A DNA stretch of 64,000 nucleotides from an uncultured Roseobacter sp. (lineage in GTDB: Bacteria > Pseudomonadota > Alphaproteobacteria > Rhodobacterales > Rhodobacteraceae), in NCBI GenBank assembly GCA_947488305.1, contig CANKZM010000001.1:310001-374000 (forward strand). The letters are read 5' to 3'. Shown piece by piece: positions 44,214-60,869 of the stretch. The notes below the pieces were generated by a model that was not told where the DNA came from, made no database searches, and saw only the letters and a list, made by a program, of their open reading frames with translations. The position numbers and the translations under genes were made by a program. Within the stretch, counting starts at the first letter, position 1. The number at the start of each line of letters is the position of its first letter.

Positions 44214-45211
44214 CAGAGGGACGCACCGACCATGCGGGCCACGTCGACCAGCCTGTTGGCGTAACCCCATTCGTTGTCATACCACGCATAGACCTTTAGC
44301 TGCGTGCCATTAACAACCATGGTGGAGGGCGCATCGATGATCGAAGACCGGGGATCATTCGTATAATCCGTGCTAACGAGCGGGCGCGTCTCATACCCCA
44401 GAATGCCTTCGAGAGGACCTTCAGAGGCTGCCTTGAACAGGCCGTTGACCTCTTCAACGGTGGTGTCTCGTTCCAGTTCGAAGACACAGTCGGTCAGGGA
44501 CGCGTTGAGCAAAGGCACGCGTACCGCATGTCCGTTCAACCGACCAGTCAGTTCCGGATAAATCAGCGTGATGGCCGTGGCACTGCCCGTGGTCGTGGGA
44601 ATCAGCGAATTGAGCGCAGACCGAGCGCGCCGAAGGTCCTTGGCAGGGCGATCGACGATGGTCTGCGTGTTCGTGACGTCATGAATAGTTGTTATACTTC
44701 CGTGTTTTATTCCAATATTCTCATGTATCACCTTCACCACTGGCGCCAGGCAATTGGTCGTGCAACTCGCGGCCGTCACGACGTGATGGGCACCCGGATC
44801 ATAGATCTCGTGATTGACTCCATAGACGATGTTTGCTGTTGGCCCGTCCTTGACCGGAGCCGATACAACGACCTTTTTCACGCCAGCAGCAAAATAGGGT
44901 GCGAGTGCCGCCTCTGACTTGAATGCGCCGGTGCAGTCGATGACCACATCCACACCGGCAAGCGGAAGGCTTTCCAACTCTCGCCGCGCATGAGCCGGAA
45001 TGCGAGTTCCGTTGATCGATACGGCGTTTTCGTCCGCCCCCCATTCCGCATCCCAGCGCCCATGCACGGTGTCGAACTCCAAAAGATGTGCGTGCATTGC
45101 CGGGTCACCCACAGCGTCATTCAACCACGCGATCTCGGCCCCGCTTTCGAGCAGGGGTTTAAGGGCAAGCTTGCCGATGCGGCCAAGGCCATTGAGTGCG
45201 AAAACTGTCAT
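44213..45211 (-). CDS. ArsJ-associated glyceraldehyde-3-phosphate dehydrogenase
   Basis: 332-residue GAPDH. NAD loop [11 protein letters not shown] at 7-17, catalytic C150 in SCTTNCLAP, and [11 protein letters not shown] near the C-terminus. Between ArsR-ArsC and ArsJ this GAPDH is expected to use arsenate in place of phosphate, making unstable 1-arseno-3-phosphoglycerate that ArsJ exports. It overlaps the upstream fusion gene by 4 bp (ATGA) and arsJ by 1 bp. A purely glycolytic role is unlikely in this place. Confidence 0.9.
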
Positions 45212-46047
45212 ACGATCTCCGGTGTTCTTCCGATTTCATCAACGTGCCGTTGAAGGTCGACACGATTGGTGGTTGAGAAAGGCAAAGCAGCAAATGCCCT
45301 TATCCTGTTGCTCAAAGCGCCAAATACCTGCTGGAAGGCCAACCTTTTTTCGGCGGGCGTGCCATTTGCTTGTGCGGGATCAGGCAGGCCCCAATGGGCT
45401 GAGATGGGTTGGCCAGGCCAAGGGGAACGCTCCTCATTTGCGGCGAAATCGCAGACCGTGAAAACGAAATCAAATGGAGGTGCCTGAGGGCCCTGATAGT
45501 CGGATAATGGCTTCGACCTCAGAAGCGACGTGTCGATCCCGCACTCCTTTGCCAATTCCAAAGCGAACGGGTGCACCGCTTCACGAGGGTGTGCACCCGC
45601 AGAATAGGCGTTGAAACGTTTCCCTGCTTCATGGCGCAGGATCGCTTCAGCGAGAATGGAACGTGCTGAGTTGCCGGTGCAAACAAAGAGAACGTTCATT
45701 TTGCGATCTGCCGGTGCCGGTGCCATATCGGTGCAAGGGACAGGTACGGGCGGGCACAGATCTGGCCGGCCATTGCAGCACTCCAGAAACAGATCAGAAA
45801 TGACGCCGCGGGCGGCCTCAAGATTTACTTCATAACGCAGAGAGGTGCCCTGCCTTTCTTGCGAAATTAGCCCCGCCTGCATCAAAGCTGAAAGATAGAC
45901 AGATGTGGTGCTGGGCTTCAGGTTCAGAACCCGTGCAATCTCTCCAGCGGGAAGCGCGTCGGGGCATCGCCGCATCAGAAGCCTGAAGACACGCATCCTG
46001 TGCGGGTGGCTTAGCGCAGCAAGGCGGTCTGAGAGTTCTACATCCAT
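45208..46047 (-). CDS. ArsR repressor fused to low-molecular-weight phosphatase-type arsenate reductase
   Basis: 279 residues. About 1-90 is an ArsR winged helix ([29 protein letters not shown]). C90, C91 and C98 near its end could bind arsenite. About 118-245 is an LMWP-fold arsenate reductase with active-site loop CTGNSARS at 123-130 (C-x5-R). C199 in [10 protein letters not shown] is present, but the second redox Cys that I expect in the E-x-C-P motif reads ERSP. The C-terminal helix follows. No ribosome site precedes ATG 46047; an inverted repeat abuts it, so leaderless translation and autorepression are likely. Confidence 0.85.
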
Positions 46048-46199: not shown

Positions 46200-46904
46200 A
46201 TGAGCGATATTGTCGAAGGCCTTACAGCAGCGTTCTGGCTTGTCATTTCCCTTGATCCCGAGCTTCTTGAAATCAGTCTGCGATCTTTGCAAGTCACCTT
46301 GACGTCACTGGTGATCGCCTCGGCGATCGCCTTGCCCTTTGGCACTTTCCTCGCAATCCGCCGGTTCCGGTATCGGCGCCTCACAATCTCGGTCCTAAAT
46401 GCGCTTATGGGCTTGCCACCGGTCGTGGTCGGGCTGATCGTCTACATCCTGTTGTCCCGGTCGGGTCCGTTTGGCGTGCTGGGCCTGCTCTTTACGCCAA
46501 CAGCCATGGTCATAGCGCAAGTGATTATCATCACACCCTTAATCGCCTCCATCACCCATCAGGCGATGCGCGAACTTTGGGCCGAATATCATGATCTGCT
46601 GATTTCGCTGAATACGTCTCAGTGGCAAAGGATCAAGACCCTCATCTGGGATGGGCGGCGAAATCTGTTAACGGCGTCTCTGGCTGGATTTGGGCGAGGT
46701 ATTGGCGAGGTTGGCGCGATCATGATTGTCGGTGGCAATATCGACAACGCGACACGTGTGTTGACCACGGCCATCGCGCTTGAAACGGGCAAGGGCGATT
46801 TTGCGCTGGCTCTTGCACTGGGCTTCGTGCTGATCGCCCTGGCGATTTCGGTGAATATTGCGATCCACTCGCTGTCTCGCACCGAAAGAGAGGGTCGCTG
46901 GTGA
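46200..46904 (+). CDS. tupB: Tungstate ABC transporter permease
   Basis: 234-residue permease with TupB features: LGLSLQVTL-like start (LEISLRSLQVTLTSL), NALMGLPPVVVGLIVY and GFGRGIGEVGAIMIVGGNI. It carries tungstate across the inner membrane. Weak ribosome site before ATG 46200. First gene of tupB-C-A, divergent from the arsenic operon, overlapping tupC by 4 bp. Confidence 0.88.
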   Translation: MSDIVEGLTAAFWLVISLDPELLEISLRSLQVTLTSLVIASAIALPFGTFLAIRRFRYRRLTISVLNALMGLPPVVVGLIVYILLSRSGPFGVLGLLFTPTAMVIAQVIIITPLIASITHQAMRELWAEYHDLLISLNTSQWQRIKTLIWDGRRNLLTASLAGFGRGIGEVGAIMIVGGNIDNATRVLTTAIALETGKGDFALALALGFVLIALAISVNIAIHSLSRTEREGRW

Positions 46905-47614
46905 CAAATATCCTCCCATTGAACCTCAAGGACGTCATGGTCAAACGGCGCGGCAAGCGCCTCATCGGTCCGGTGTCGACCAAACTGGGGAATACTGGCA
47001 TAACGATGATCCTTGGCCCGAACGGGAGCGGCAAGACTACGCTGCTGAAGGTGATGCACGGGGTCGAACGGGTCAGTGCCGGCCAAGTGCAGTGGGCGGT
47101 GCCGGACCACGAAGCTCAGCATCATCAAAGCTATGTCTTCCAGTCGCCGATCATGTTGCGCCGATCAGTGATCGACAACCTTCGGTATCCGCTGCAGTTA
47201 CATGGCACCCCCAAGGCCGAACAAGAAGCGCGTGTTTCCGAATGGGCGCGCAAGATCGGTCTTGAAGACCATTTGTCGGTGCAGGCCACACGGTTATCAG
47301 GCGGTGAAAAGCAGCGTCTCGCCCTGGGGCGGGCCTTGATCCGCCGACCAGAGGTTTTGTTTCTGGACGAACCTTGTGCCAATCTTGATGGGGCTTCTAC
47401 ACGCGACATTGAAACGCTGTTGCTCGAAGCGCATGCGGCGGGGACGCGTATTGTGATGACCACGCACAACATTGGGCAGGCGAAACGGCTTGCGACCGAT
47501 GCGATTTTTTTGTTGCATGGCGAGATATGGGAGTCCGGGCCGTCGGCGAGGTTTTTCGACGCCCCAGAAACCCCGGAATTACAGGCATTTTTCAGAGGAG
47601 ATATCATCGCATGA
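46901..47614 (+). CDS. tupC: Tungstate ABC transporter ATP-binding protein
   Basis: 237 residues. Walker A GPNGSGKTT at 39-47, QSPIMLRRSV, signature LSGGEKQRLA, Walker B VLFLDEPCANLD and switch His in MTTHNIGQA. GTG 46901 overlaps tupB; its stop overlaps the tupA start (ATGA). Confidence 0.88.
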   Translation: MTNILPLNLKDVMVKRRGKRLIGPVSTKLGNTGITMILGPNGSGKTTLLKVMHGVERVSAGQVQWAVPDHEAQHHQSYVFQSPIMLRRSVIDNLRYPLQLHGTPKAEQEARVSEWARKIGLEDHLSVQATRLSGGEKQRLALGRALIRRPEVLFLDEPCANLDGASTRDIETLLLEAHAAGTRIVMTTHNIGQAKRLATDAIFLLHGEIWESGPSARFFDAPETPELQAFFRGDIIA

Positions 47615-48417
47615 TCGCGCGCGTCCTTGGCATTATGGCGACGTTCTTGATGGCGTCGGTTGCAACTGCAGACTCGATCAAACTGGCGGTGACGACCTCT
47701 TTCGAAAACTCCGGGCTATCAAGCGTTCTACTGCCAGCGATCCAGGAAGATCTGGGGTTGGAAGTTCAGCTCCTTGTTGTTGGCACAGGTCAGGCGCTGC
47801 GGCTGGGGGAAGCGGGGGATGTGGATGCAATTCTTGTCCATTCTCGTGCTGCAGAAGAACAGTTTGTGGCGGAAGGCTCTGGAACCCATCGCCGAGAGAT
47901 CATGTACAATGATTTCGTTTTCATCGGTCCTGATGATGACCCTGCCGGGATCGCGTCCGCAGAGTCCGCAGTTGATGCCTTGCAACGAATAGAGACAACA
48001 AAACCTGCTTTTGTCAGTCGGGGTGATGACAGCGGCACGCATAAGAAAGAGGTGGGCCTCTGGCAAGAAGCCAGGTTAGAGCCAGAGAGCTTTGAGGCGT
48101 GGTACCGAAAGGTAGGCGCAGGCATGGGCGCGAGCCTCAACACCGCTGCGGGTTTGGAGGCGTATATCCTAGCGGATCGCGCCAGCTGGCTCAACTTTGG
48201 CAACAAGGCCGGGCTTGGGCTCTTGTTCGCGGGTGATCCGGTTCTTTTCAATCAATATGCATTTTTGCCGGTAAGCCCCGAAAAGCACCCACATGTGCGA
48301 AATGATCTGGCGGTACAACTTGAAGAATGGCTTGTAAGTGACCGTTCTGCTGAGCTTATCAATTCGTATCAGATCGAAGGCGAAACGCTCTTTACCTTTA
48401 ACGCTGACCCAGAATGA
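47611..48417 (+). CDS. tupA: Tungstate ABC transporter substrate-binding protein
   Basis: 268 residues with a signal peptide cut near ATADS. TupA hallmarks: IKLAVTTSFENSGL at the mature N-terminus, VVGTGQALRLGEAGDVD, SRGDDSGTHKKE and a conserved LADRASWL. TupA binds tungstate with high affinity, which fits supply to the formate dehydrogenase encoded downstream. ATG 47611 overlaps tupC. Its stop is adjacent to the convergent DUF6505 gene. Confidence 0.9.
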   Translation: MIARVLGIMATFLMASVATADSIKLAVTTSFENSGLSSVLLPAIQEDLGLEVQLLVVGTGQALRLGEAGDVDAILVHSRAAEEQFVAEGSGTHRREIMYNDFVFIGPDDDPAGIASAESAVDALQRIETTKPAFVSRGDDSGTHKKEVGLWQEARLEPESFEAWYRKVGAGMGASLNTAAGLEAYILADRASWLNFGNKAGLGLLFAGDPVLFNQYAFLPVSPEKHPHVRNDLAVQLEEWLVSDRSAELINSYQIEGETLFTFNADPE

Positions 48418-48912
48418 TCAGTGCTGATGGGGATCGTCGTCCAATGATCCATGAACGGCGAACTGTTCGATCCCGGCACTTTGCGGCTCGATCATCCCAT
48501 AGCTTTCCTTGATGCCGGCATCGGTCAATTCGCGCGCAACCGTGAGCAGCGTATTGGCGGGTTGTTCTTCACAAAGCGCGATCATCTGGTCGATTTCTTC
48601 CAGCGCAGTGCCCATCGCAGCGTCAACAGACGGGGCACCATAAATCGACACAAAATGCTGCGCCAGAGATTTGGCTAAAGCCTCCCGTTCGAAGGGTTCG
48701 ATCTGAGCGACCGCAACCAGGCTCGAACGCCCGAACGTTTCGAGCCCCATCCAGCCATTGCTGAATGCTTGTTTGGCTTTGCCAACGAGGTCTCCTTCTG
48801 TCCAGTTCGAGAACTCGAACCCGCCGGAGATGCACCATTCACCCGTGCGGGCCGGACTGTGGAAAACGCGAGTGTCGCTTTCGTCGAAGTGAATTGCACG
48901 GGCAAGTTTCAT
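48418..48912 (-). CDS. DUF6505-like protein of the formate dehydrogenase neighbourhood
   Basis: 164 residues, no signal peptide or membrane span, ending in a His/Asp-rich tail (GSLDDDPHQH). I recognise it as resembling DUF6505, a family of unknown function; the recall is not certain. It is last in a minus-strand operon whose genes all overlap by 4 bp (DUF6494, mrp, biotin-ligase-like, this gene). A role in formate dehydrogenase or Fe-S/pterin assembly is inferred only from context. Confidence 0.65.
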   Translation of the reverse strand: MKLARAIHFDESDTRVFHSPARTGEWCISGGFEFSNWTEGDLVGKAKQAFSNGWMGLETFGRSSLVAVAQIEPFEREALAKSLAQHFVSIYGAPSVDAAMGTALEEIDQMIALCEEQPANTLLTVARELTDAGIKESYGMIEPQSAGIEQFAVHGSLDDDPHQH

Positions 48913-49613
48913 GGGGTCTCCGTCAGAAGGTCCGTCAGGGGGATGATCGTCGTGTTGGTGTCTGTCTGCAAGATCATTCCAAAGTTTTCATCCACGCCCA
49001 CGAATGTTCCTGCGTGATCGCCTTGGCAGGCCGCTTCATTCAACCCGTGGACAAGCCCGGACCACTCCCGGTGCAACGGGCGGGGGCCTTCGTCCAGCCA
49101 CCGGTTTATCCACACAAGACTGTGCCGCACCCAGGCCTCCAGCAGAGCAGGGGCCTCAACGTCGGAGCAGCCTTCGGAGAAAAGCGCAGTGACATCCGGT
49201 GTCAGCCCGGTTTCATCCGAAGCAGGCCATAGCGCAAGCTCAAGCCCGATCACCAGCCAATCCGGCTCCTCCAGCAGTGCGGGGGGCATCGCTGCCATCT
49301 TCAGCGTTCCCGCAACTGCGCCATTCAGGCGGATGTTGCCATCCCATACCAAGTGCACGCTGACTTCGGGCGGGGCCAGAGCGCCCAGAGCGTTCTGAAA
49401 GCCAACGCCGCATACGGGCAACATGACCGCAGCCTCCTGCAACGGAACCTCTGGCGCAAAGACCATCGCCGCACGCAGGACATCGGGCCGCAAATCATAG
49501 ACGACAAGCCCCGCGTCACAACCGGATTGGGCTTGCTTGCAGGCCAGTACAAACGGATCTTCTCCGGCGCTGGCTATCTCGGTGAACAGCGGAGGTAACG
49601 ACAGGGTGCTCAT
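48909..49613 (-). CDS. Degenerate biotin/lipoate protein ligase-like protein (DUF4444 type)
   Basis: 234 residues. A biotin-ligase core is suggested by LVWDGNIRLNGAVAGTL, which lines up with the BirA segment 'kWPNDl...grKvaGiL', followed by a small C-terminal barrel (HAGTFVGVDENFGMIL). The Lys expected before 'vaGiL' is absent and the GRGRxGR ATP loop cannot be found, so it is probably not an active ligase. It overlaps its neighbours by 4 bp. Why a ligase relative lies beside formate dehydrogenase genes is unclear. Confidence 0.65.
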   Translation of the reverse strand: MSTLSLPPLFTEIASAGEDPFVLACKQAQSGCDAGLVVYDLRPDVLRAAMVFAPEVPLQEAAVMLPVCGVGFQNALGALAPPEVSVHLVWDGNIRLNGAVAGTLKMAAMPPALLEEPDWLVIGLELALWPASDETGLTPDVTALFSEGCSDVEAPALLEAWVRHSLVWINRWLDEGPRPLHREWSGLVHGLNEAACQGDHAGTFVGVDENFGMILQTDTNTTIIPLTDLLTETP

Positions 49614-50677
49614 GCCTTCCCGTCTGCGATCAGATTCCGCGCAACGGTTCGGAAGACGGCGGCCTGCGCACTGTCGGGCTTGGAAACCACGATGGGCGCG
49701 CCACCGTCGGCTGCTTTTCGGATATCGAGATGCAACGGGATTTCTGCGAGCAAAGGCACGCCGAGTTTTTCCGCTTCTGCCTTTACGCCTCCGTGCCCAA
49801 AGACATGTTCTTCGTGTCCGCAGTTCGAACAGATGTGCGTGGACATGTTCTCGATCATCCCAAGGATCGGGGTGCCCAACTGGTTGAACATGTCGATGCC
49901 CTTGCGCGCGTCCAACAGCGCCACGTCCTGCGGCGTGGAAACGACAATCGCACCATCCACATGGGCTTTTTGCGCGAGTGTCATCTGAACATCGCCCGTA
50001 CCGGGCGGCAAATCGACAATCAGCACATCAAGTGCGCCCCACTGCACCTGGTTCATCATTTGCTGCAGCGCGCCCATCAGCATCGGCCCACGCCAGACAA
50101 CAGCCTGATCCTCATTTGTCATCAAGCCGATGGACATCATCGTAACGCCAAAGTTCCGCATCGGCAGAATGGTCTTTCCATCGGGGGAAGCGGGCCGACC
50201 GGAGACTCCCAGCATTCGTGGCTGTGACGGGCCATAGACATCCGCGTCCAGCAGCCCGACCCGTCGCCCTTCGGCGGCCAGCGCACAGGCGATGTTGGCC
50301 GAGAGTGTGGATTTGCCCACGCCCCCTTTGCCGGAGGCAATTGCAATGATCCGGTCCACGCCAGGTATTTTCTGCGGGCCAGCGGGCTCTGCCTTGCGTT
50401 GAGGTTTCAGATCTGGCGGCGGTGTTTGCGCGCTATGGGCGGTCATCAGCACTTGCGATTTCGACACGCCAGCGCTTGCAAGTGCCTCTTCTGCAGCGGT
50501 CTTGACCGCTTCATAGGCGCTGACCTGCGAGGGGGGCACTTCCATGACAAACCGCACCGCACCATCCTCACCAACCGTGAGGGCCTTGACCAGTCCGGCA
50601 GAGACCAGATCACTGCCCGACACCGGATCGTTTACCGTTTTAAGTGCGGCAAGTACCGTTTCGCGGGTTACGGTCAT
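49610..50677 (-). CDS. mrp: Mrp/ApbC-family Fe-S cluster carrier ATPase
   Basis: 355 residues. N-terminal MIP18-like domain (about 1-85), P-loop GKGGVGKST at 116-124, ADVYGPSQPRMLG, LIVDLPPGTGD and the C-terminal cluster pair CSNC in THICSNCGHEE. Mrp proteins carry and insert [4Fe-4S] clusters; the nearby polyferredoxin and formate dehydrogenase need at least a dozen. It overlaps both neighbours by 4 bp. Confidence 0.88.
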   Translation of the reverse strand: MTVTRETVLAALKTVNDPVSGSDLVSAGLVKALTVGEDGAVRFVMEVPPSQVSAYEAVKTAAEEALASAGVSKSQVLMTAHSAQTPPPDLKPQRKAEPAGPQKIPGVDRIIAIASGKGGVGKSTLSANIACALAAEGRRVGLLDADVYGPSQPRMLGVSGRPASPDGKTILPMRNFGVTMMSIGLMTNEDQAVVWRGPMLMGALQQMMNQVQWGALDVLIVDLPPGTGDVQMTLAQKAHVDGAIVVSTPQDVALLDARKGIDMFNQLGTPILGMIENMSTHICSNCGHEEHVFGHGGVKAEAEKLGVPLLAEIPLHLDIRKAADGGAPIVVSKPDSAQAAVFRTVARNLIADGKA

Positions 50678-50874
50678 GCGTCTGTTGCACCTGTGATCTG
50701 TCCCGTCACGACATGTTCGACGTCGAGACCATCAATTGTCAAAACGACTTTCGCCTCAAAGGATTTACCGCTGGTATTGCCTGCGTCACGCATCGCTTTT
50801 TCAATGGCCTGTTGCGACGTCACGCCAACCTGTTTGAGGAACTTGCGCATCGACATGTTGAAGTCATCATTCAT
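50674..50874 (-). CDS. Small DUF6494-like protein
   Basis: 66 residues from ATG 50874, which follows TAGGAGAG; the open frame is longer but unsupported. Sequence shows MNDDFNMSMRKFLKQVG, an amphipathic helix, then a two-strand end (KSFEAKVVLTIDGLDVEHVV). I recognise it as DUF6494-like, function unknown. First gene of the operon with mrp, divergent from the mini-TupA/cytochrome c gene. Confidence 0.65.
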   Translation of the reverse strand: MNDDFNMSMRKFLKQVGVTSQQAIEKAMRDAGNTSGKSFEAKVVLTIDGLDVEHVVTGQITGATDA

Positions 50875-50963: not shown

Positions 50964-51701
50964 GTGAAGAAACTGATTCAGTCGATCCTTGTTGCCATGG
51001 TTTGTGCCCGCGCCGTCACCGCAGAAGAGGCCGAGCTGAAGCTGGCTGTACCAGGAGCCTTGGAAGACGCGGGTTTCATGCAGTTCCTTGTGCCCCGATT
51101 TTCGCTGAAGACAAGTATCAGAATAGCACGGGTGCCAGAGGGTGATGTCGCACAGATGAAATTCGGGACCAGTGGCACGCCGGTTTTCGAAGGTCTCGGC
51201 CAAATCTGGCACCTGACCCATGACGGGGATGCGCGCGCCCAGCGGTTTGAGGATTGGCTGTTGTCTGACATCGGCCTGCGCACGATCGAAAGCTTTGCCA
51301 TGGCGGATGGATCTGGATTTACAACACCGTCGGTTGAGGCCGAAGTGGCGGAAGAGACAGTTTTTCTGGGCGATCCGCAACTGGGCGAAACCATTTCGCT
51401 GCAGAAATGCGGGCGATGCCACGTTATCAATGACAGCAACCGGATGAAGGGCATGGGATCCACTCCGTCCTTCGCGCTCATGCGGACCTTCGAGGATTGG
51501 GAAACGCGATTTGCGACCTTTCACGAACTCAAGCCGCACCCGAGTTTCACCCAGATCGAAGGCGTGAGCGAAGCCTTTGATCCCGCGCGTCCACCTCCCA
51601 TCGTGCCGGTGACGATGACGCTTGGCGATCTGGATGCGATCCTCGCCTATGTAGCGGGCATTGAACCCGCGGATCTTGGCGCCCCTTTGCAATTTCAGTG
51701 A
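50964..51701 (+). CDS. Mini-TupA/cytochrome c fusion protein
   Basis: 245 residues with signal peptide (MKKLIQSILVAMVCARAVTA). Residues 24-60 align with the start of the TupA encoded 3 kb upstream (KLAVPGALEDAG versus KLAVTTSFENSG), and residues 90-120 with the TupA C-terminus (FEDWLLSDIGLRTIESF versus LEEWLVSDRSAELINSY). About 170 central TupA residues are missing. A single c-type heme site CGRCH is at 149-153, with Met 161 or 164 as possible axial ligand. GTG 50964 has an AGAGGGG site. It looks periplasmic and could pass electrons or sense an oxyanion; function unknown. Its end overlaps the convergent polyferredoxin gene by 7 bp. Confidence 0.8.
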   Translation: MKKLIQSILVAMVCARAVTAEEAELKLAVPGALEDAGFMQFLVPRFSLKTSIRIARVPEGDVAQMKFGTSGTPVFEGLGQIWHLTHDGDARAQRFEDWLLSDIGLRTIESFAMADGSGFTTPSVEAEVAEETVFLGDPQLGETISLQKCGRCHVINDSNRMKGMGSTPSFALMRTFEDWETRFATFHELKPHPSFTQIEGVSEAFDPARPPPIVPVTMTLGDLDAILAYVAGIEPADLGAPLQFQ

Positions 51702-53650
51702 TCCTTGCGCTTGCTCAGGTAGTCATCTGTGGTGCGCACGCGCGGTCGATCCTTGCTGGCGAACGGGTTGTTGTCAGAATGGTACTGCGCCTGAACACGG
51801 CAGTTGTCACACATCTGGATCATGCGGATTGTCTCCGGGCTGGAGAACATCGCGTGATTGCCAGCCAGCTTTTCGGTAATCCGTTCGACCGTTGATTTGA
51901 CGCCGAACAGTGATCCGCACTCAACGCAGGCAAATGGCTCTTCTTCGTGGAGAACTTTCTGCGTGAAAGCGGCGTCGGTCAGGTCCAGTTGCGGGGTCAG
52001 GCTGATGGCCTTTTCAGGACAAATATTGCTGCAAAGACCACATTGCAGACAGGCATCTTCCTGAAAGCGTAGTTGGGGATTATCCGGATTATCACCTAGC
52101 GCCCCGGACGGGCACAGCGACACGCAGGAAAGGCACAAGGTGCAAGCGTCCTGGTCGACAACAATTGCACCGTAGGGTGCCGCCGCGGGTAAAGGCAGGA
52201 TTTCGGCGTCGGGTTGAAGAGCTTTGGCCGCGAGACGGGTCACCTGACGTCTGGTCCCGATCGGTAGCACAGGTTCTGCCACCGGATCGGCAACCGATGT
52301 GTCATAAAGGGCATCCGACAGGGCATCCGGGTCCGATATATCGAGCAGACGAATTGCAGATGTGCCGCAAACTGCAATCGCCAGAGCAACTTCGTCTTCA
52401 ATCACACCACGTTCGGTCTTTGGGGCCAAGAGAATGTCGACCTGCGCAAAACCTGTGGCCAGCGCCGCGAGCATTTCAGCATGACCGAACCCGGCTAACG
52501 CAGACACGGAAAGGGGGATCACATCGGCTGGCAATCCGCGGCCATACCGTGCAGCAAGCGAAATCATCTCAGCGCCAAAGTAATCGTCATGCAGCAGCAA
52601 CCGAGGCGCGGAACCGCCTGCGTTGCGGTAGGTGCTGGCAAGGGTATGCAATCGGTTGAATAGTGTTCCGACGGGGGGCGCATCATAGGTGATTGCACCA
52701 GATGGACAGAGGGCCGAGCATGCGCCGCATCCTGCACATATCAGCGGATCAATCGCGACATGTTCGCCTGCTGATGTGATTGCACCCGTCGGGCAAATGT
52801 CGAGGCACTTTGTACAGGCTGGTTTTTCCGCACGGGAATGCGCACAAAGGGGTTCTTCAAGCCGGACGTAGAGGGGCTTTTCAAACGTGCCGACCATCTG
52901 CGACGCCTGCAAGACCGCATCGGCCACGGCGGGCACGCTGCCCGGGGCCGCTCGCAGATATCCATCCCGTTTCTCCGGTGCGGGAAACAGGGGTTGCCCG
53001 CCAGACAGATCAAGGATGATGTCGCATTCCGACAAAGCGCCGTCTTTTGGTTCGGTCCAGGTCGGTGTGCCGCGACCGCCTGCAATGACGTTCTGAAAGG
53101 CGTCGATGCGCAAGGAAAACTGTCCCAATGTACCTTCTGCGCGGTGAAGGTGCCCGGCGACCGTTTCAAAGTCCCCCAAAACATCTGTGTCCGTCGCTTC
53201 CGGCAACAGAAGGGTCACAGCCAGTGCTGAGCTGAGATCATCCGCTGCCTTCAGCGCGGCTTCAGTTCCACCGATCACCAGACACGCGCCCTGTGACTGG
53301 ATATCGAGTGTCTTTTCCGCCGGTCGGCTCAGCGTGGCTTCGGCTAGCAAGGCCGCCATTTTTGGCGTTGGTTCCTGGCCTTTTGCCGTCCAACCGGCGC
53401 GGTCGCGAATGTCAACAAACGCGGGGGCTGACGCGCCGACTTCCTCGGCCAGTTCGGAAAAGAGGCGAGCCTGTTGTTGGCAGGCGACCATCACATCGCC
53501 ATCTTCGATTGCTTTGGCCGTCGTCTCAATCTGGCTGCCACAAGCATCTGAAAGAGTTTTGTCGCACTGCAATCCTGTCACGGATGCCAGGGTATTGGCG
53601 TCGATTTTTTGACTGCCGAGACAATCACACAAGATCAGCTTCTTCGCCAT
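51695..53650 (-). CDS. Polyferredoxin with four [4Fe-4S] motifs
   Basis: 651 residues, cytoplasmic. Four ferredoxin Cys sets: C279-C282-C286 (with C269), C305-C308-C311-C315, C503-C506-C509-C513 and C534-C537-C540-C544. A final pair of CxxC (C575/C578 and C614/C617) may bind zinc or a further cluster. The N-terminal 60 residues have Cys at 8, 10, 29, 37 and 57. The 190-residue linker between cluster pairs has no motif I recognise. Such proteins accompany formate dehydrogenase genes in related bacteria; electron transfer or cluster assembly for it is inference. Confidence 0.8.
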   Translation of the reverse strand: MAKKLILCDCLGSQKIDANTLASVTGLQCDKTLSDACGSQIETTAKAIEDGDVMVACQQQARLFSELAEEVGASAPAFVDIRDRAGWTAKGQEPTPKMAALLAEATLSRPAEKTLDIQSQGACLVIGGTEAALKAADDLSSALAVTLLLPEATDTDVLGDFETVAGHLHRAEGTLGQFSLRIDAFQNVIAGGRGTPTWTEPKDGALSECDIILDLSGGQPLFPAPEKRDGYLRAAPGSVPAVADAVLQASQMVGTFEKPLYVRLEEPLCAHSRAEKPACTKCLDICPTGAITSAGEHVAIDPLICAGCGACSALCPSGAITYDAPPVGTLFNRLHTLASTYRNAGGSAPRLLLHDDYFGAEMISLAARYGRGLPADVIPLSVSALAGFGHAEMLAALATGFAQVDILLAPKTERGVIEDEVALAIAVCGTSAIRLLDISDPDALSDALYDTSVADPVAEPVLPIGTRRQVTRLAAKALQPDAEILPLPAAAPYGAIVVDQDACTLCLSCVSLCPSGALGDNPDNPQLRFQEDACLQCGLCSNICPEKAISLTPQLDLTDAAFTQKVLHEEEPFACVECGSLFGVKSTVERITEKLAGNHAMFSSPETIRMIQMCDNCRVQAQYHSDNNPFASKDRPRVRTTDDYLSKRKDH

Positions 53651-53959: not shown

Positions 53960-54547
53960 GTGCGAGGTTACCTTTTGAGTTTAAGTTACCCGAACTCCCA
54001 GTCGTTGCGGCTGGGTGTTATCATGCGAAGAACCCCCGGCGTGACCCGTTGGGCAAAGTGGAGCTGGAAAGCAGTCTCTGTCGTGCCTTTTGCAGGGGAC
54101 GCCAACTGGAAGTTGTTGCGTTCCGAAGGAGATGTGGCTGAATTCCACGCCGCTACATTGGACTCCTGGCTCTATGTCTCGGACACGGAGGCGTATGTGC
54201 ATGAACTGGGTGCTGAGCAACCCTCTGTCTATGTCGTCTTGCGGCCAAGTGAGGGTGACAACCCTTCTGGCCTTGACGTTATACACATCACTGCATCGCC
54301 CTATGAAGCACAGGACTATGCCGACACCGGTGAGGAAATCGTTGAAAAGGTTCCAATGCCCGAAGGCGTTCTGGCGTGGGTCACGGACTTTGTGGACAAA
54401 TATCATGTTGAAGAAACCTTCGTGAAACGCCGCCGGAACAAAGAACGGGTTGATCGGAAGGACAGCGGCATCGGGGATTCCCGCATTTCGCAAAACTCGG
54501 ATGTGTATCGTGCGCCAACTGCGACACGGCATGAGGCTGCCGAATGA
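53960..54547 (+). CDS. DUF3305 family protein of the formate dehydrogenase operon
   Basis: 195 residues. The family core VIMRRTPGVTRWAKWSWKAV near residue 20 and a conserved RPSEGDNPSGLDVIHITASPYEA stretch are visible, followed by a Lys/Arg-rich tail (FVKRRRNKERVDRK). DUF3305 genes stand with DUF3306 and TorD-like genes in front of formate dehydrogenase genes in many proteobacteria; the role is unknown. GTG 53960 is used; TTG 53975 is an alternative. Overlaps DUF3306 by 4 bp. Confidence 0.8.
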   Translation: MRGYLLSLSYPNSQSLRLGVIMRRTPGVTRWAKWSWKAVSVVPFAGDANWKLLRSEGDVAEFHAATLDSWLYVSDTEAYVHELGAEQPSVYVVLRPSEGDNPSGLDVIHITASPYEAQDYADTGEEIVEKVPMPEGVLAWVTDFVDKYHVEETFVKRRRNKERVDRKDSGIGDSRISQNSDVYRAPTATRHEAAE

Positions 54548-55161
54548 AAGACGCGGGCTCCTTCTGGGCGCGTCGCCGCGCCGCCGTCGAGGCCGAAGCG
54601 CATGCTGATGCGGTAGCGACACAAGCCAGTGAAGAGAGGGCGCGAGCAGAGGCGCTTGCATATAAGGACGACGCAGAGGTTCTTGCTGAGCTGGGTCTGC
54701 CCAACCCTGAAGACATGCAATCTGGCGACGATTTCTCAGCCTTTATGAATCGAGACGTGCCAGAGCATCTGCGCAAACAGGCTTTGAGAACATTGTGGCG
54801 AAGCAATCCTGTTTTGGCCTGCGTCGACGGTTTGAATGAATATGACGATGATTACCGTGCTGCAATGTTACTGCAGGAGCCAATCAAGACCGCTTATCAG
54901 GTCGGCAAAGGTATGCTGAAGCATATCGAAGAGATGGAGCGCCAAGCTTCCGAGGAGGTCGTCTCGCCTGAGCATGACGATGATGCGCAGGATGTCACTG
55001 CATTGGATGTGGATGAAACAGAGATGCCACAGGTCGGCGCTGACGATGTGACCCTTGAGCCGGTGATGGCACAAATTGATTTAGCGGATGTGGAGGAGGA
55101 CATGACGGCTTCTCCAACCCCCCGCCGAATGCGCTTTCGATTTGAAGAGGCCGCATTATGA
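54544..55161 (+). CDS. DUF3306 family protein of the formate dehydrogenase operon
   Basis: 205 residues. N-terminal SFWARRRAAVEAEA helix, central FMNRDVPEHLRKQALRTLWR and SNPVLACVDGLNEYDDDY are family features, followed by an acidic low-complexity region and a basic end. Function unknown; always near DUF3305. The stop overlaps the chaperone start by 4 bp. Confidence 0.8.
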   Translation: MKDAGSFWARRRAAVEAEAHADAVATQASEERARAEALAYKDDAEVLAELGLPNPEDMQSGDDFSAFMNRDVPEHLRKQALRTLWRSNPVLACVDGLNEYDDDYRAAMLLQEPIKTAYQVGKGMLKHIEEMERQASEEVVSPEHDDDAQDVTALDVDETEMPQVGADDVTLEPVMAQIDLADVEEDMTASPTPRRMRFRFEEAAL

Positions 55162-55769
55162 ATCAGCAGCAGGCGGAACAGATGGAAGTTGATGCCGAGG
55201 ACCGGCTGCGTGCTGATCTTTACAATTTTCTGGGTGTTTTGCTTGCGCGGCCTGCAGGCGAAATGCTGCTGGAACAGACTGCATCTTTGACCGGTGACGA
55301 TGGCCCGTTGGGGCAGGCGATTGCGGGATTGTCGCGGGTTGCAAAAGTGAGCAAGGCCAAGGCTGTTGAGCGGGAGTTCAACGATTTGTTCATCGGGTTA
55401 GGGCGCGGCGAGCTGTTGCCCTATGCGAGTTACTATCTGACAGGTTTTCTCAACGAAAAACCTTTGGCGCGTTTGCGTCAGGACATGGCTGCATTGCAGG
55501 TGACACGGGCTGAGAATGTGTTCGAACCTGAGGACAGCATGGCGTCACTGATGGAAACCATGGGTGGGTTGATTGTGGGGCGGTTCGGTGTGCCGGCCAC
55601 GCTGGAGCGTCAAAAGACGTTTTTCAACAATCACATAGCACCTTGGGCCACACATTTTTATTCGGATTTGGAGGCTGCGAAAACGTCCGTGTTTTACGCC
55701 TCCGTCGGGGCTGTCGGGCGTGAGTTCATGGCCATCGAACGCGAAGCATTTCGCATGAGCGCAGATTGA
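55158..55769 (+). CDS. TorD-family molecular chaperone for formate dehydrogenase
   Basis: 203-residue all-helical protein of the TorD/DmsD family with the hallmark segment YASYYLTGFLNEKPLARLRQD near 90. Such chaperones bind the Tat leader and hold the molybdopterin subunit until cofactor insertion. Its place directly before two Tat-signal proteins supports this role. Confidence 0.85.
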   Translation: MNQQQAEQMEVDAEDRLRADLYNFLGVLLARPAGEMLLEQTASLTGDDGPLGQAIAGLSRVAKVSKAKAVEREFNDLFIGLGRGELLPYASYYLTGFLNEKPLARLRQDMAALQVTRAENVFEPEDSMASLMETMGGLIVGRFGVPATLERQKTFFNNHIAPWATHFYSDLEAAKTSVFYASVGAVGREFMAIEREAFRMSAD

Positions 55770-56107: not shown

Positions 56108-58990
56108 ATGCTAAGAAAAAAGACCAATTCTGTCGGTCAACGCGCAGGACGCTCCAGTATATTGGGCGATGTCGCGTCTAAGTCGGTAGATCGCCGCGCA
56201 TTCCTGAGAGGCTCCGGTCTCGCAATCGGCGGATTGGCCGCCATTTCCGCGACAGGTGGATCGGTTACTCAGGCCTCTGCGGCGGCTGCCGTTTCCGGCT
56301 CTGTCGAAAACATCAAATCCGTGTGCACGCACTGCTCTGTCGGCTGTACCGTGATTGCAGAGGTTTCCAACGGTGTCTGGACAGGTCAGGAGCCGGGATG
56401 GGATAGCCCCTTCAACCTCGGTGCCCATTGCGCCAAGGGAGCCGCTGTCAGAGAGCACGCCCATGGCGAGCGGCGTCTCAAGTATCCGATGAAGAAGGAA
56501 AACGGCGAGTGGGTCCGCATCAGCTGGGATCAGGCGATCGACGAGATCGGCGACGGCATGATGAAAATCCGCGAGGAAAGCGGCCCGGATTCCGTCTACT
56601 GGCTGGGGTCTGCGAAATCGAACAACGAAGGGGCCTATCTCTTCCGCAAGTTCGCGGCCTACTGGGGCACCAACAACGTCGATCACCAGGCGCGGATCTG
56701 TCACTCGACCACGGTGGCGGGTGTGGCAAACACATGGGGCTACGGCGCCATGACCAACAGCTACAACGACATCCACAATTCCAAGGCGATCTTCCTGATC
56801 GGCGGCAACCCTGCAGAAGCGCACCCTGTGTCGCTGTTGCACATGCTGAAAGCCAAGGAGCAGAACAACGCACCGTTTATCGTCTGCGACCCGCGGTTTA
56901 CACGTACCGCTGCCCACGCCGATGAATATGTGCGCTTCCGTCCGGGCACAGACGTCGCGCTGATCTGGGGTATTCTCTACCACATCTTCGAGAATGGCTG
57001 GGAAGACAAAGAATTCATCCGCACCCGCGTTTGGGGGATGGATCAGATCAAAGCCGAAGTTGCGAAATGGAACCCCGAGGAAGTCGAGCGTGTCACAGGC
57101 ACGCCGGGCAGCCAGCTCAAGCGCGTCGCGCGCACCTTGGCCAACAACCGTCCAGGCACCGTGATCTGGTGCATGGGCGGTACGCAACACACCAATGGTA
57201 ACAACAACACGCGCGCCTACTGTGTGCTCCAGCTTGCTCTGGGCAACATGGGCACAGCGGGTGGCGGGACCAACATCTTCAGGGGCCACGACAACGTGCA
57301 GGGTGCTACCGATCTTGGCGTTTTGGCCAACACGTTGCCAGGCTACTATGGCCTCAGCGACGGATCCTGGGCCCATTGGGCGCGGGTCTGGGAAGAAGAT
57401 CTGGATTGGCTGAAAGGCCGCTTCTCTGACGCCGAGTTCGGCGACAAGAAGATGATGAACCAGACCGGTATCCCGGTGTCGCGCTGGATCGATGGCGTGC
57501 TCGAGGATGCCGAGAACATGGACCAACCCGACAACACGCGGGCCATGGTGTTCTGGGGCCACGCACCAAACTCTCAAACGCGTATGAAAGAGATGAAGAC
57601 GGCGATGGAGAAACTCGACATGCTTGTCGTGGTGGACCCATATCCGACAGTCTCTGCTGTTATGCAGGACCGCACCGATGGTGTGTATCTGCTGCCAGCC
57701 TGTACGCAGTTTGAAACCTACGGTTCTGTGACAGCATCCAACCGTTCGCTGCAATGGCGTGAAAAAGTGGTCGAGCCGCTCTTTGAATCGCTGCCCGATC
57801 ACACGATCATCCATAAGTTCGCGACGAAGTTCGGATTTGCGGATCGTATTTTCCGCAACATCGAAGTGAATGGCGAAGAGCCGCTGATCGAAGACATCAC
57901 CCGCGAATTCAATCGCGGCATGTGGACCATCGGCTACACGGGACAAAGCCCGGAGCGGATGCGTTTGCACATGGAAAACCAGCACACCTTCGATCGCACA
58001 AGTCTTCGTGCGGTAGGGGGGCCGGCAGATGGCGACTACTATGGTATGCCATGGCCAAGCTGGGGCACAGCCGAGATGAACCATCCCGGCACACCAAACC
58101 TTTATGACATGTCTCTGCCGGTGGCAGAGGGTGGTTTGGCGTTCCGTGCTCGTTTCGGTGTGGAGCGGGACGGTGACAATCTGCTGGCAGAAGGGGTCTC
58201 GAACCCGGGTGCGGAAATTCAGGATGGCTATCCCGAATTTACGATGCAGATGCTCATGGACCTTGGATGGGACAGTGATCTGACCGATGAGGAACGTGCT
58301 GCCATTGATGCGGTGGCTGGACCAAAAACCAACTGGAAGACCGACTTGTCAGGCGGCATCCAGCGGGTTGCGATCAAGCATGGTTGTGCGCCCTTCGGGA
58401 ATGCCAAGGCCCGTGCGGTTGTCTGGACCTTCCCGGATCCGGTGCCAAAACACCGCGAGCCGCTTTATACCAACCGTCGCGATCTCGTGGCCGACTATCC
58501 GACCTACGAGGACAAGAAGTTCTGGCGCCTGCCGACAATGTACAAGTCGATCCAGGAAAATGACTTCTCAGCGGATTATCCGATCATTCTGACCTCCGGT
58601 CGTCTGGTCGAATATGAAGGCGGTGGGGACGAGACACGGTCCAACCCGTGGCTGGCGGAACTGCAGCAGGACATGTTCGTTGAGGTGAATACTCGCGACG
58701 CGAACAACCTCGGCATCCGCGATGGCTCCGACGTTTGGGTCGAAGGTCCGGAAGGCGGCAAGGTCAAGGTGAAGGCCCTCGTGACAGAGCGGGTCGCCTC
58801 GGGCGTCGCCTTTATGCCGTTCCACTTTGGCGGACACTGGGAAGGTGAGGACCTGAGGGGCAAGTATCCCGAAGGAGCTGACCCTTATGTGCTTGGTGAA
58901 TCAACCAACCTCGCACAGACCTATGGCTATGACAGCGTAACCCAGATGCAGGAGACTAAAGCCACTCTCTGCAAAATCTGGGCAGCATAA
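56108..58990 (+). CDS. fdhA: Formate dehydrogenase alpha subunit (molybdopterin/tungstopterin, Tat-exported)
   Basis: 960-residue bis-pterin oxidoreductase. Tat motif VDRRAFLRGS at 28-37; [4Fe-4S] Cys C73, C76, C80 and C108; active site C198-H199 in QARICHS, where some formate dehydrogenases carry selenocysteine (no UGA here). Family segments include GGNPAEAHPVSLLHM and SGRLVEYEGGGDETRSNPW. It oxidises formate in the periplasm and passes electrons to the Fe-S subunit. Tungstate and molybdate uptake genes nearby leave the metal open, though TupABC favours W. GGGAGAG lies before ATG 56108. Confidence 0.92.
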   Translation: MLRKKTNSVGQRAGRSSILGDVASKSVDRRAFLRGSGLAIGGLAAISATGGSVTQASAAAAVSGSVENIKSVCTHCSVGCTVIAEVSNGVWTGQEPGWDSPFNLGAHCAKGAAVREHAHGERRLKYPMKKENGEWVRISWDQAIDEIGDGMMKIREESGPDSVYWLGSAKSNNEGAYLFRKFAAYWGTNNVDHQARICHSTTVAGVANTWGYGAMTNSYNDIHNSKAIFLIGGNPAEAHPVSLLHMLKAKEQNNAPFIVCDPRFTRTAAHADEYVRFRPGTDVALIWGILYHIFENGWEDKEFIRTRVWGMDQIKAEVAKWNPEEVERVTGTPGSQLKRVARTLANNRPGTVIWCMGGTQHTNGNNNTRAYCVLQLALGNMGTAGGGTNIFRGHDNVQGATDLGVLANTLPGYYGLSDGSWAHWARVWEEDLDWLKGRFSDAEFGDKKMMNQTGIPVSRWIDGVLEDAENMDQPDNTRAMVFWGHAPNSQTRMKEMKTAMEKLDMLVVVDPYPTVSAVMQDRTDGVYLLPACTQFETYGSVTASNRSLQWREKVVEPLFESLPDHTIIHKFATKFGFADRIFRNIEVNGEEPLIEDITREFNRGMWTIGYTGQSPERMRLHMENQHTFDRTSLRAVGGPADGDYYGMPWPSWGTAEMNHPGTPNLYDMSLPVAEGGLAFRARFGVERDGDNLLAEGVSNPGAEIQDGYPEFTMQMLMDLGWDSDLTDEERAAIDAVAGPKTNWKTDLSGGIQRVAIKHGCAPFGNAKARAVVWTFPDPVPKHREPLYTNRRDLVADYPTYEDKKFWRLPTMYKSIQENDFSADYPIILTSGRLVEYEGGGDETRSNPWLAELQQDMFVEVNTRDANNLGIRDGSDVWVEGPEGGKVKVKALVTERVASGVAFMPFHFGGHWEGEDLRGKYPEGADPYVLGESTNLAQTYGYDSVTQMQETKATLCKIWAA

Positions 58991-59005
58991 GGGAGGACAT
59001 GAACA

Positions 59006-59602
59006 ATGGCCGCTAGAGCAAAATTTCTCGTCGACGCTGAACGCTGCATTGAATGCAACGCCTGTGTTACCGCCTGTAAGAACGAGCACGAAGTGCCGTG
59101 GGGCATCAACCGTCGAAAGGTTGTCACGCTAAATGACGGCCAACCCGGCGAACGCTCGATTTCGGTAGCTTGCATGCACTGTTCAGACGCGCCTTGTATG
59201 GCAGTCTGCCCGGTGGATTGCTTCTACCAGAACGAAGAGGGCGTGGTCCTGCACTCCAAGGATCTTTGTATCGGCTGCGGGTATTGCTTTTATGCATGCC
59301 CCTTCGGTGCCCCTCAGTTCCCGCAGGCAGGCAACTTCGGATCCCGGGGCAAGATGGACAAATGTACCTTCTGCGCCGGTGGCCCCGAGGAAAACCATTC
59401 GACAGCCGAATTCCAGAAGTATGGTCGCAACCGGATCGCGGAAGGCAAGCTGCCGATCTGCGCCGAGATGTGTGCCACCAAGGCGCTTTTGGCCGGTGAC
59501 GGTGACGTGGTTTCCGGCATCTACCGCGAGCGTGTTGTTGCACGGGGCTTTGGCTCCGGTGCCTGGGGCTGGGGAACGGCGTACGACCAAAAAGGTGGCT
59601 GA
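59006..59602 (+). CDS. fdh3B: Formate dehydrogenase iron-sulfur beta subunit (FDH3 type)
   Basis: 198 residues with four [4Fe-4S] sites: CIECNACVTAC at 14-24, CMHCSDAPCMAVC at 56-68, CIGCGYCFYAC at 88-98 and C120/C123 with later Cys near CAEMCATK. It relays electrons from the pterin subunit to the cytochrome b. It begins 15 bp after fdhA. No membrane anchor is seen, so it is held by the gamma subunit. Confidence 0.9.
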   Translation: MAARAKFLVDAERCIECNACVTACKNEHEVPWGINRRKVVTLNDGQPGERSISVACMHCSDAPCMAVCPVDCFYQNEEGVVLHSKDLCIGCGYCFYACPFGAPQFPQAGNFGSRGKMDKCTFCAGGPEENHSTAEFQKYGRNRIAEGKLPICAEMCATKALLAGDGDVVSGIYRERVVARGFGSGAWGWGTAYDQKGG

Positions 59603-59630
59603 CAGGCCTCTTTTTTGTACTAACTGATAA

Positions 59631-59653
59631 GGGGCGGTTCTTAGAGCCGCCCC
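59631..59653 (+). terminator. Hairpin between beta and gamma subunit genes
   Basis: GGGGCGGTTC and its partner GAGCCGCCCC form a 10 bp stem (one G-U) with a 3-base loop at 59631-59653, 28 bp after the beta-subunit stop. No strong T-run follows, so full termination is doubtful; partial termination would lower gamma-subunit levels. Confidence 0.55.
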
Positions 59654-59681
59654 TCACCATCTTTGACAGGGTGTCCTAAAT

Positions 59682-60869
59682 ATGCTGCGTCTGTTTTCCG
59701 TCTTTCTTCTGGCAATGTTCTTCGCTCTGCCTGCCTACGCACAAGAAGCTGAACCCGCTCCTGATCGCTCTGCTACCGGCGGGGCTCAAACGCTTGAAGA
59801 CATCATGCGGCGTCAGCAGGGGTTGGAGGTCGACAATTCCTTTCGCAGTTCGAACACCGGCAATCCGACGGGGGGCGCTTCCCCGACCGACCAACTTGGT
59901 ACTTTGGGCGGCGCTTCCGATCCGGACCTGTGGCGTGGCCTGAGGTTTGATAGCGCCGATATCACAACACAGATTCAACACCCCGCTGCCACGGTCCTGA
60001 TTCAGGACACCGGGATGTGGTGGTTGCAATTCCGCGAAGGGCCATTGACCAAATATGGTTTTGGGCTGGTTCTTGGCACCATGGCGTTGCTCGTTCTGTT
60101 CTATCTGATACGTGGACGCATTCGTATCGACGGCGAGAAGACAGGGCGCAAAATTCTGCGGTTCAAATCCATCGAGAGGTTTGCCCATTGGCTGCTGGCC
60201 GGATCGTTTATTCTACTGGGTCTGACTGGTGTCATATCGCTCTTGGGGCGAAACTTCCTGATCCCGGCACTTGGACCTGAAGGGTTTTCAACCATAGCGA
60301 TTGGCGCAAAATGGGTTCACAACAACGTCTCATGGGCGTTCATGTTGGCGATTGTGATGATCTTTGTGCTCTGGGTGGTGCATAATCTGCCGCATCGGTC
60401 CGACATCAACTGGTTGCTCAAGGGCGGCGGCATTTTTGGCGGTGGTCACCCGCCGGCCAGAAAGTTCAACGCCGGTCAAAAGTTCATTTTCTGGTCTGTC
60501 ATCATCTTGGGCGGGTCGATCTCGGCTTCCGGACTGTCGCTGCTATTTCCGTTTGAATTGCCGATGTTCGCGGCCACCTTTGAAAAACTGAACCAGTTTG
60601 GCATCCCCCAACTTCTTGGATTAGGTGAGCTTAACACCAACCTCGCGCCGCATACAGAAATGCAATATGCACAGCTCTGGCATGCGATTGTAAGCTTTGT
60701 ACTCTTTGCCATCGTCATCGCGCATATCTACATCGGGTCAGTGGGGATGGAGGGTGCATATGACGCCATGGGATCCGGCGAAGTGGAAGAGCAATGGGCA
60801 CGTGAGCACCACAGCCTTTGGGTCGAAGAGGTCAAATCAAAAGAAGCCAAGGCGGGAGGCTCATCATGA
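59682..60869 (+). CDS. Formate dehydrogenase cytochrome b gamma subunit
   Basis: 395 residues. A signal peptide (MLRLFSVFLLAMFFALPAYA) and about 110 mostly polar residues precede the four-helix cytochrome b core. Candidate heme ligands are the His in RFAHWL, WVHNNV, WHAIV and AHIYIG. The core shares GHPPARKFNAGQK with FdnI/FdoI-like subunits. It anchors the complex and gives electrons to quinone. The long periplasmic N-terminal part is not in E. coli FdnI. Its stop overlaps the next small gene. Confidence 0.9.
   Translation: MLRLFSVFLLAMFFALPAYAQEAEPAPDRSATGGAQTLEDIMRRQQGLEVDNSFRSSNTGNPTGGASPTDQLGTLGGASDPDLWRGLRFDSADITTQIQHPAATVLIQDTGMWWLQFREGPLTKYGFGLVLGTMALLVLFYLIRGRIRIDGEKTGRKILRFKSIERFAHWLLAGSFILLGLTGVISLLGRNFLIPALGPEGFSTIAIGAKWVHNNVSWAFMLAIVMIFVLWVVHNLPHRSDINWLLKGGGIFGGGHPPARKFNAGQKFIFWSVIILGGSISASGLSLLFPFELPMFAATFEKLNQFGIPQLLGLGELNTNLAPHTEMQYAQLWHAIVSFVLFAIVIAHIYIGSVGMEGAYDAMGSGEVEEQWAREHHSLWVEEVKSKEAKAGGSS

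Follow-up and report, generated by a model that had tools for sequence, protein, structure and literature searches.

What does part of a tungstate receptor do at the front of a cytochrome c? The question is raised by one gene (50964..51701, + strand, stop included) in the window, a 64,000-nucleotide stretch of DNA from an uncultured Roseobacter sp. The reading frame is intact: 245 codons, with a GTG start at 50964 and a stop that ends at 51701. Taken together, the ORF and its family matches define a 245-residue protein, here called mini-TupA, with four parts in order: a putative Sec signal peptide (residues 1-20; 50964..51023, +), recognized by eye in the sequence and modelled as a helix over residues 2-14; a lobe I domain of ~103 residues (~22-124); a short linker; and a monoheme cytochrome c domain (residues ~133-245; 51360..51698, +), delimited by standalone homologues and by Pfam Cytochrom_C matches in relatives.

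An earlier note had aligned the front of this protein first to the start of TupA and then to the TupA C-terminus, and this is borne out by BLASTP, half-profiles, and hhalign. In BLASTP comparisons with the window's own TupA, 16/71 residues are identical in the N-part (E 0.002) and 10/29 in the C-part (E 0.014), both being single-comparison E-values. That TupA is a full-length, two-lobe protein (47527..48417, +, taken as the longest ORF; NCBIfam TupA, E 3.9e-53) whose true start is probably Met29. For mini-TupA, the NCBIfam TupA model is the sole NCBIfam match at E<=0.1 (E 0.0016, residues 10-69, 17.8 bits), and Pfam returns no match at E<=0.1. The protein scores below the NCBIfam TupA cut-off (17.8 vs 400 bits), as does the window's TupA (180.5), so the cut-off is of little help here. 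Nineteen of 86 mini-TupA homologues match this model at E<=0.01.

Two half-profile HMMs were made separately from the 86-row homologue alignment (A2) for residues 22-72 (51027..51179, +) and 78-124 (51195..51335, +), the N-terminal and C-terminal segments of lobe I. They were run against the stop-to-stop ORFs of the window and of 144 fetched loci, 16,509 in all with a minimum length of 80 aa. With the mini-TupA family left out, every row at E<1e-3 is TupA: 9/9 for the first profile, near the TupA N-terminus; and 25/25 for the second, in the last ~35 residues. The weaker rows include one unclassified ORF for each profile (E 0.48 and 0.56). A class-wide search (385 genomes) shows in many of them two separate matches, to model positions ~5-77 and ~88-135, on one and the same TupA-like ORF. 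By hhalign against 54 TupA sequences, the N-part scores 90.2% (E 1.5e-6) and the C-part 95.5% (E 1.4e-8), and a PDB profile search retrieves five binding-protein-like chains at E<0.003 (3muq, 5my5, 3cvg, 3kn3, and 3lr1). The N-terminal domain is homologous to TupA lobe I; the separate half-profiles, hhalign, and the structure search rule out chance likeness. As for its source, the adjacent TupA is unsupported as direct donor: the TupA proteins that match the domain most strongly are 44-49% identical to the window's own.

The structure models place this homology in the fold. AlphaFold gives a mean pLDDT of 93.0 and a pTM of 0.83 for the N-domain alone, and 91.4 and 0.67 for the whole protein, so the orientation of the two domains is uncertain in the model. 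The N-domain model corresponds to lobe I of TupA, as the reading in the earlier note requires: Foldseek against the PDB ranks 5my5, TupA of Desulfovibrio alaskensis, first (probability 1.00, TMq 0.67, E 0.011, rmsd 9.8). Both Foldseek searches found nothing at E<=0.001; with E-values this weak, the structural claim leans on the sequence profiles along with the rank, probability, and TM-score of the match. The match aligns 108 residues over 248 columns, a spread that would be expected of a single lobe built from two chain segments, with the other lobe missing between them. TupA structures (5my5, 3lr1) and the NCBIfam model (NF041772) thus share with mini-TupA the lobe I sequence and fold, assembled from both ends of the chain; TupA differs in having lobe II, ~140 residues that are missing here together with the two-lobe arrangement, and mini-TupA differs in carrying a cytochrome c. 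The central part of TupA is indeed gone, although the loss is ~140 residues by this alignment rather than the 170 first proposed. (Six family members, L119, L124, L132, L133, L136, and L137, appear by eye to have a longer middle stretch in this lobe and are possibly nearer to the ancestral TupA lobe I.)

Tungstate binding is unlikely to have survived. Three motifs that we take to be tungstate-binding are conserved in TupA and lost in the mini family: TT[TS] (52/54 TupA vs 1/86 mini sequences); GTGxA (54/54 vs 1/86); and SRGDxSGTH, searched as SRGD[DN]SGTH (51/54 vs 0/86). What the 86 mini sequences keep instead is a set of invariant residues that spans both domains: G37, R45, K49, W98, G141, C149, R151, C152, H153, S169, F170, P191, H192, P215, L238, and G239, with G104 in 85/86. 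W98 and G104 lie in the C-terminal lobe I segment. The invariant basic residues R45 and K49 (86/86) could contact an anion or the heme propionates, and so lend something to the idea of an oxyanion or formate sensor, in which the lobe binds the anion and the heme reports this or is modulated by it. The earlier note had offered such a sensor, a proposal that the protein does not support: lobe II is absent, the TupA motifs are gone, and neither a transmembrane nor a signalling output domain is attached. We regard a sensor as the least probable of the functions considered.

The heme site that the earlier note placed after the TupA-like part is present: CGRCH at residues 149-153 (51408..51422, +), with C149, R151, C152, and H153 invariant and a CxxCH site in 86/86 sequences. 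Pfam Cytochrom_C matches 46/86 homologues at E<=0.01, the window's protein not among them. In the AlphaFold model one helix precedes the heme site (138-149) and another lies near the C-terminus (220-231). The 86-sequence alignment has no conserved Met column in the region where a class I c-type cytochrome would be expected to carry its distal ligand; M161, eight residues after His153, occurs in 59/86, and His192 (51537..51539, +) in 86/86. The lack of a conserved distal Met suggests His/His ligation, with His192 as the candidate second axial ligand beside His153.

Could the fusion be an accident of one genome? A frameshift or pseudogene is ruled out by homologues that stand open in many genomes and by 112 fused ORFs among the fetched loci. 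The lobe-cytochrome fusion is a real, conserved protein architecture, and apparently one not described before: literature searches returned no paper on such a protein, as judged by title or start of abstract.

The genes around mini-TupA bear more directly on its role. Upstream and divergent lies DUF6494 (50674..50874, -; start inferred from a Pfam match that begins at residue 23 of an 88-aa ORF), followed on the same strand by an Mrp/ApbC-type Fe-S carrier ATPase (49610..50677, -; Pfam, NCBIfam), a biotin/lipoate ligase-like protein with DUF4444 (48909..49613, -; Pfam), and DUF6505 (48418..48912, -; Pfam). Beyond these, with tupA, come the TupB permease (46200..46904, +; NCBIfam TupB, E 5.7e-50) and the TupC ATPase (46901..47614, +; Pfam ABC_tran, named by position). 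On the other side a 4Fe-4S polyferredoxin (51695..53650, -; Pfam) is convergent with the mini-TupA gene and overlaps its 3' end by 7 bases. It is followed by DUF3305 and DUF3306 (53960..55161, +), named from position and annotated relatives; a TorD-like chaperone (55158..55769, +; Pfam, NCBIfam); and the FDH3-type formate dehydrogenase subunits fdhA, fdh3B, and fdhC (56108..60869, +), named from annotated relatives. Farther out, the minus strand of 42942-46047 encodes an MFS transporter, GAPDH, and a 279-aa ORF in which a DNA-binding part like ArsR is joined to one that resembles ArsC or low-molecular-weight phosphatases; by eye the set resembles an ArsJ/GAPDH arsenate cluster in which arsR and arsC have fused.

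This setting is conserved. The survey covered 108 stretches: the window, 100 genome stretches, three further contigs, and four of the five plasmids identified. Polyferredoxin, DUF3305, and DUF3306 each occur somewhere in 106/108; the ligase-like gene in 105, TorD in 104, DUF6505 in 103, and Mrp in 102; fdhA in 102, fdhB (fdh3B) in 91, fdhC in 86, and DUF6494 in 95. The polyferredoxin gene is downstream of and convergent to mini-TupA in 106/108 loci, and in the two without it (L118 and L137) the stretch stops at a contig edge. DUF6494 lies on the upstream side, divergent, in 95/108, and both genes flank mini-TupA in 93/108; in 11 of the 13 loci where no DUF6494 was detected, that position is occupied by Mrp or the ligase-like gene. 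The earlier note had asked whether homologues keep company with tup and fdh genes. They are found in fdh loci, and linkage to fdh is firm (fdhA 102/108); that to tup is weaker, with tupA in 45/108 stretches (upstream, on the same strand, and within 7 kb in 40 of the 45).

DUF6505, the ligase-like/DUF4444 gene, Mrp, and DUF6494 (48418-50874, -, in the window) form a conserved set beside FDH3, possibly an unstudied formate dehydrogenase maturation module; a literature search on its three DUF names found no paper. An fdhGHI-linked DmsD-type operon, according to a published survey, groups formate dehydrogenase, chaperone, DUF3305, DUF3306, and ferredoxin genes (PMC4464133). In comparison with the window's cluster, the survey passages on this operon mention no cytochrome c or TupA-like domain (PMC4464133).

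Since Mrp, the ligase-like gene, and the polyferredoxin look maturation-related, the association points toward maturation as much as toward catalysis. One reading therefore makes mini-TupA a maturation or repair factor, whose cytochrome would supply or remove electrons during periplasmic activation of FDH3 while the lobe recognizes the enzyme or its metal site. Consistent with this are the short divergent intergenic region that mini-TupA commonly shares with the DUF6494-Mrp-ligase-DUF6505 set (DUF6494 upstream in 95/108), and the apparent cofactor or Fe-S maturation character of that set, the polyferredoxin, and TorD. So is a fused gene from outside the window's family (L179), which adjoins DUF6494-Mrp-ligase-DUF6505 in a 13 kb stretch that holds no polyferredoxin or fdh gene. 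Arguing the other way, formate dehydrogenases of the FDH3 type are exported already folded by Tat (the Tat signal was read by eye), and the gene is missing from some of the clusters, as the distribution shows.

Mini-TupA gene matches occur in 105/295 genomes of the window's family, in the fused form in 103; the remaining two (G004 and G054) have the cytochrome alone, and no cluster gene was detected within their fetched stretches. The class sample adds two genomes of another family with the fused form: L179, described above, and L178, which has polyferredoxin ~3 kb off. To gauge presence of the cluster, polyferredoxin was used. Matches at E<=0.001 occur in 249/295 genomes, many of them weak ferredoxin matches, and a strong match was set at E below 1e-120 (our own cut). 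Strong polyferredoxin is found in 137 genomes, 103 with the mini-TupA gene and 34 without; conversely, 103/105 gene-positive genomes have one, the exceptions being G008 and G102.

The loci of 20 of these 34 cluster-positive, gene-negative genomes were fetched and inspected. Neither the N-part nor the C-part of mini-TupA was found at any of the 20. In 17/20, DUF6494 sits directly beside polyferredoxin; in two (L192 and L195) DUF6494 was undetected and Mrp adjoins polyferredoxin; and one (L204) is rearranged. A replacement cytochrome elsewhere is rejected as well: the cytochrome part has no match at E<=0.001 in any of the 34 genomes, five of which are <90% complete. (What the profile search of the 34 did yield, 39 matches in 24 genomes, falls entirely in the TupA-like part of the model, positions 3-129.)

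A quickly built polyferredoxin tree (133 rows) needs 18 changes to account for presence and absence, and starred branches force 13 of these. Shuffling gives a mean of 18.9, and absences are thus scattered as if at random, which fits frequent loss and also poor tree resolution. Repeated loss seems the likelier direction of change than repeated gain. With ~18 changes in presence while the cluster stays, the mini-TupA cytochrome is accessory or optional rather than core. For a maturation or repair factor this is awkward: 34/137 cluster-positive genomes do without the gene, and the 20 fetched loci among these retain most of the genes presumed to serve maturation. That reading thus seems unlikely, if clearly the most credible of the alternatives.

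The descent of the lobe raises another prospect, a redox gate on tungstate uptake: the lobe would compete with TupA for TupB, and the state of the heme would couple import to formate respiration. TupB (E<=1e-30) is indeed present in 104/105 gene-positive genomes. It is about as common without mini-TupA, in 32/34 cluster-positive, gene-negative genomes (vs 58/156 other genomes), so TupB goes with FDH3 and is uninformative on mini-TupA; tupA itself lies in only 45/108 stretches, which also speaks against a gate. We consider such a gate improbable. Equally improbable is a variant in which a one-lobe receptor with heme uses its old TupB-facing surface to seat the cytochrome on either the Tup transporter or the dehydrogenase, with the redox state of the heme linking the supply of tungstate to formate respiration.

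If the cytochrome is optional, is the lobe? Thirteen ORFs encode the cytochrome without it, 11 outside the window's family and two inside. Seven of the 11 outside-family loci lie near cluster genes (L168-L171, L173, L174, and L176), one of them (L173) having cluster genes but no fdh genes in its stretch; the other four (L172, L175, L177, and L184) have no cluster gene in the fetched stretch. The standalone proteins of other families' FDH3-type clusters have the same domain, with the Pro-His pair kept (by eye, among the sequences listed), and differ in the missing N-terminal lobe. The existence of lobe-less forms means that the lobe is dispensable for whatever the cytochrome does.

In three loci (L169, L170, and L174) a full tupA lies ~1 kb from the standalone cytochrome, a setting in which fusion could arise. 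The cytochrome-domain tree (117 columns, 124 rows), whose bootstrap had not settled and whose root is unsure, groups nine standalone forms from other families (96/85) and places L168 and the pair L182/L183 among fused forms. With standalone forms both apart from and among the fused ones, the lobe may have been gained as well as lost, in either order.

Some of these loci merit separate mention. Between tupA and cytochrome, L169 (10400-10792, -) and L170 (8813-9232, +) show by eye a small ModE-like HTH frame. The cytochromes that stand without a cluster at L172 (9653-9919), L175 (9760-10044), and L177 (754-1014) may have other partners. L184 (9421-9942, +) encodes a weak cytochrome relative (E 3e-8) that by eye has a Met two residues past Pro-His-Pro; judged from its sequence, this is perhaps an ancestral form, with a Met ligand, of what became the His-only family.

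The closest known kind to mini-TupA is XoxGJ, or cytochrome cGJ, whose partner is methanol dehydrogenase and whose binding part is XoxJ, in contrast to a TupA-like lobe beside formate dehydrogenase. (No methanol dehydrogenase was found among the window's neighbours scanned with Pfam and NCBIfam.) XoxJ we take to be a full-length protein of a binding-protein family other than TupA. As described for Methylacidiphilum, XoxGJ fuses the XoxJ binding protein to the XoxG cytochrome, a type that takes up the electrons of methanol dehydrogenase (PMC8170126, PMC8498564). Both systems join a binding-protein part to a c-type cytochrome in one periplasmic chain, in the context of a C1-substrate dehydrogenase; relatives of XoxGJ have separate genes for the two parts (PMC8170126, PMC8498564). 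Methylorubrum is reported to need XoxG and XoxJ for XoxF-dependent growth (PMC7391723). XoxJ is proposed to activate methanol dehydrogenase (PMC8170126), a precedent that speaks for mini-TupA as a maturation factor.

The same parallel serves the reading that we prefer, at roughly even confidence: mini-TupA as a soluble periplasmic monoheme cytochrome, an optional electron partner of FDH3, in which the motif-less TupA lobe I is a docking or positioning module and not a receptor. The protein would be exported by Sec; its heme c would be held by His153 and His192; the cytochrome would take electrons from the FDH3 formate dehydrogenase; and the former receptor lobe would dock or position the cytochrome. 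A carrier for FDH3 fits residence in the FDH3 cluster, the lobe-less cytochrome in other families' clusters, and the XoxGJ precedent. Against it, FDH3 has its own membrane cytochrome b (FdhC), and a soluble cytochrome is therefore unneeded for quinone reduction. Among the functions first suggested for this gene, an electron carrier for formate dehydrogenase fits the cluster context best, the transfer itself being our inference.

The finding suggests that a metal receptor has been recycled as the scaffold of an optional electron carrier. To our knowledge, descriptions of natural one-lobe proteins that derive from two-lobe binding proteins are rare; in this family such a protein persists in roughly one in three of the genomes sampled, nearly always in the same metalloenzyme cluster. 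The parallel with XoxGJ suggests that binding-protein folds have been recruited more than once as cytochrome scaffolds for C1 dehydrogenases. Among relatives the cytochrome may be fused, free-standing, or absent, which makes the role of the protein directly testable. As a candidate soluble electron outlet for FDH3, it may also be of interest for formate and CO2 electrocatalysis.
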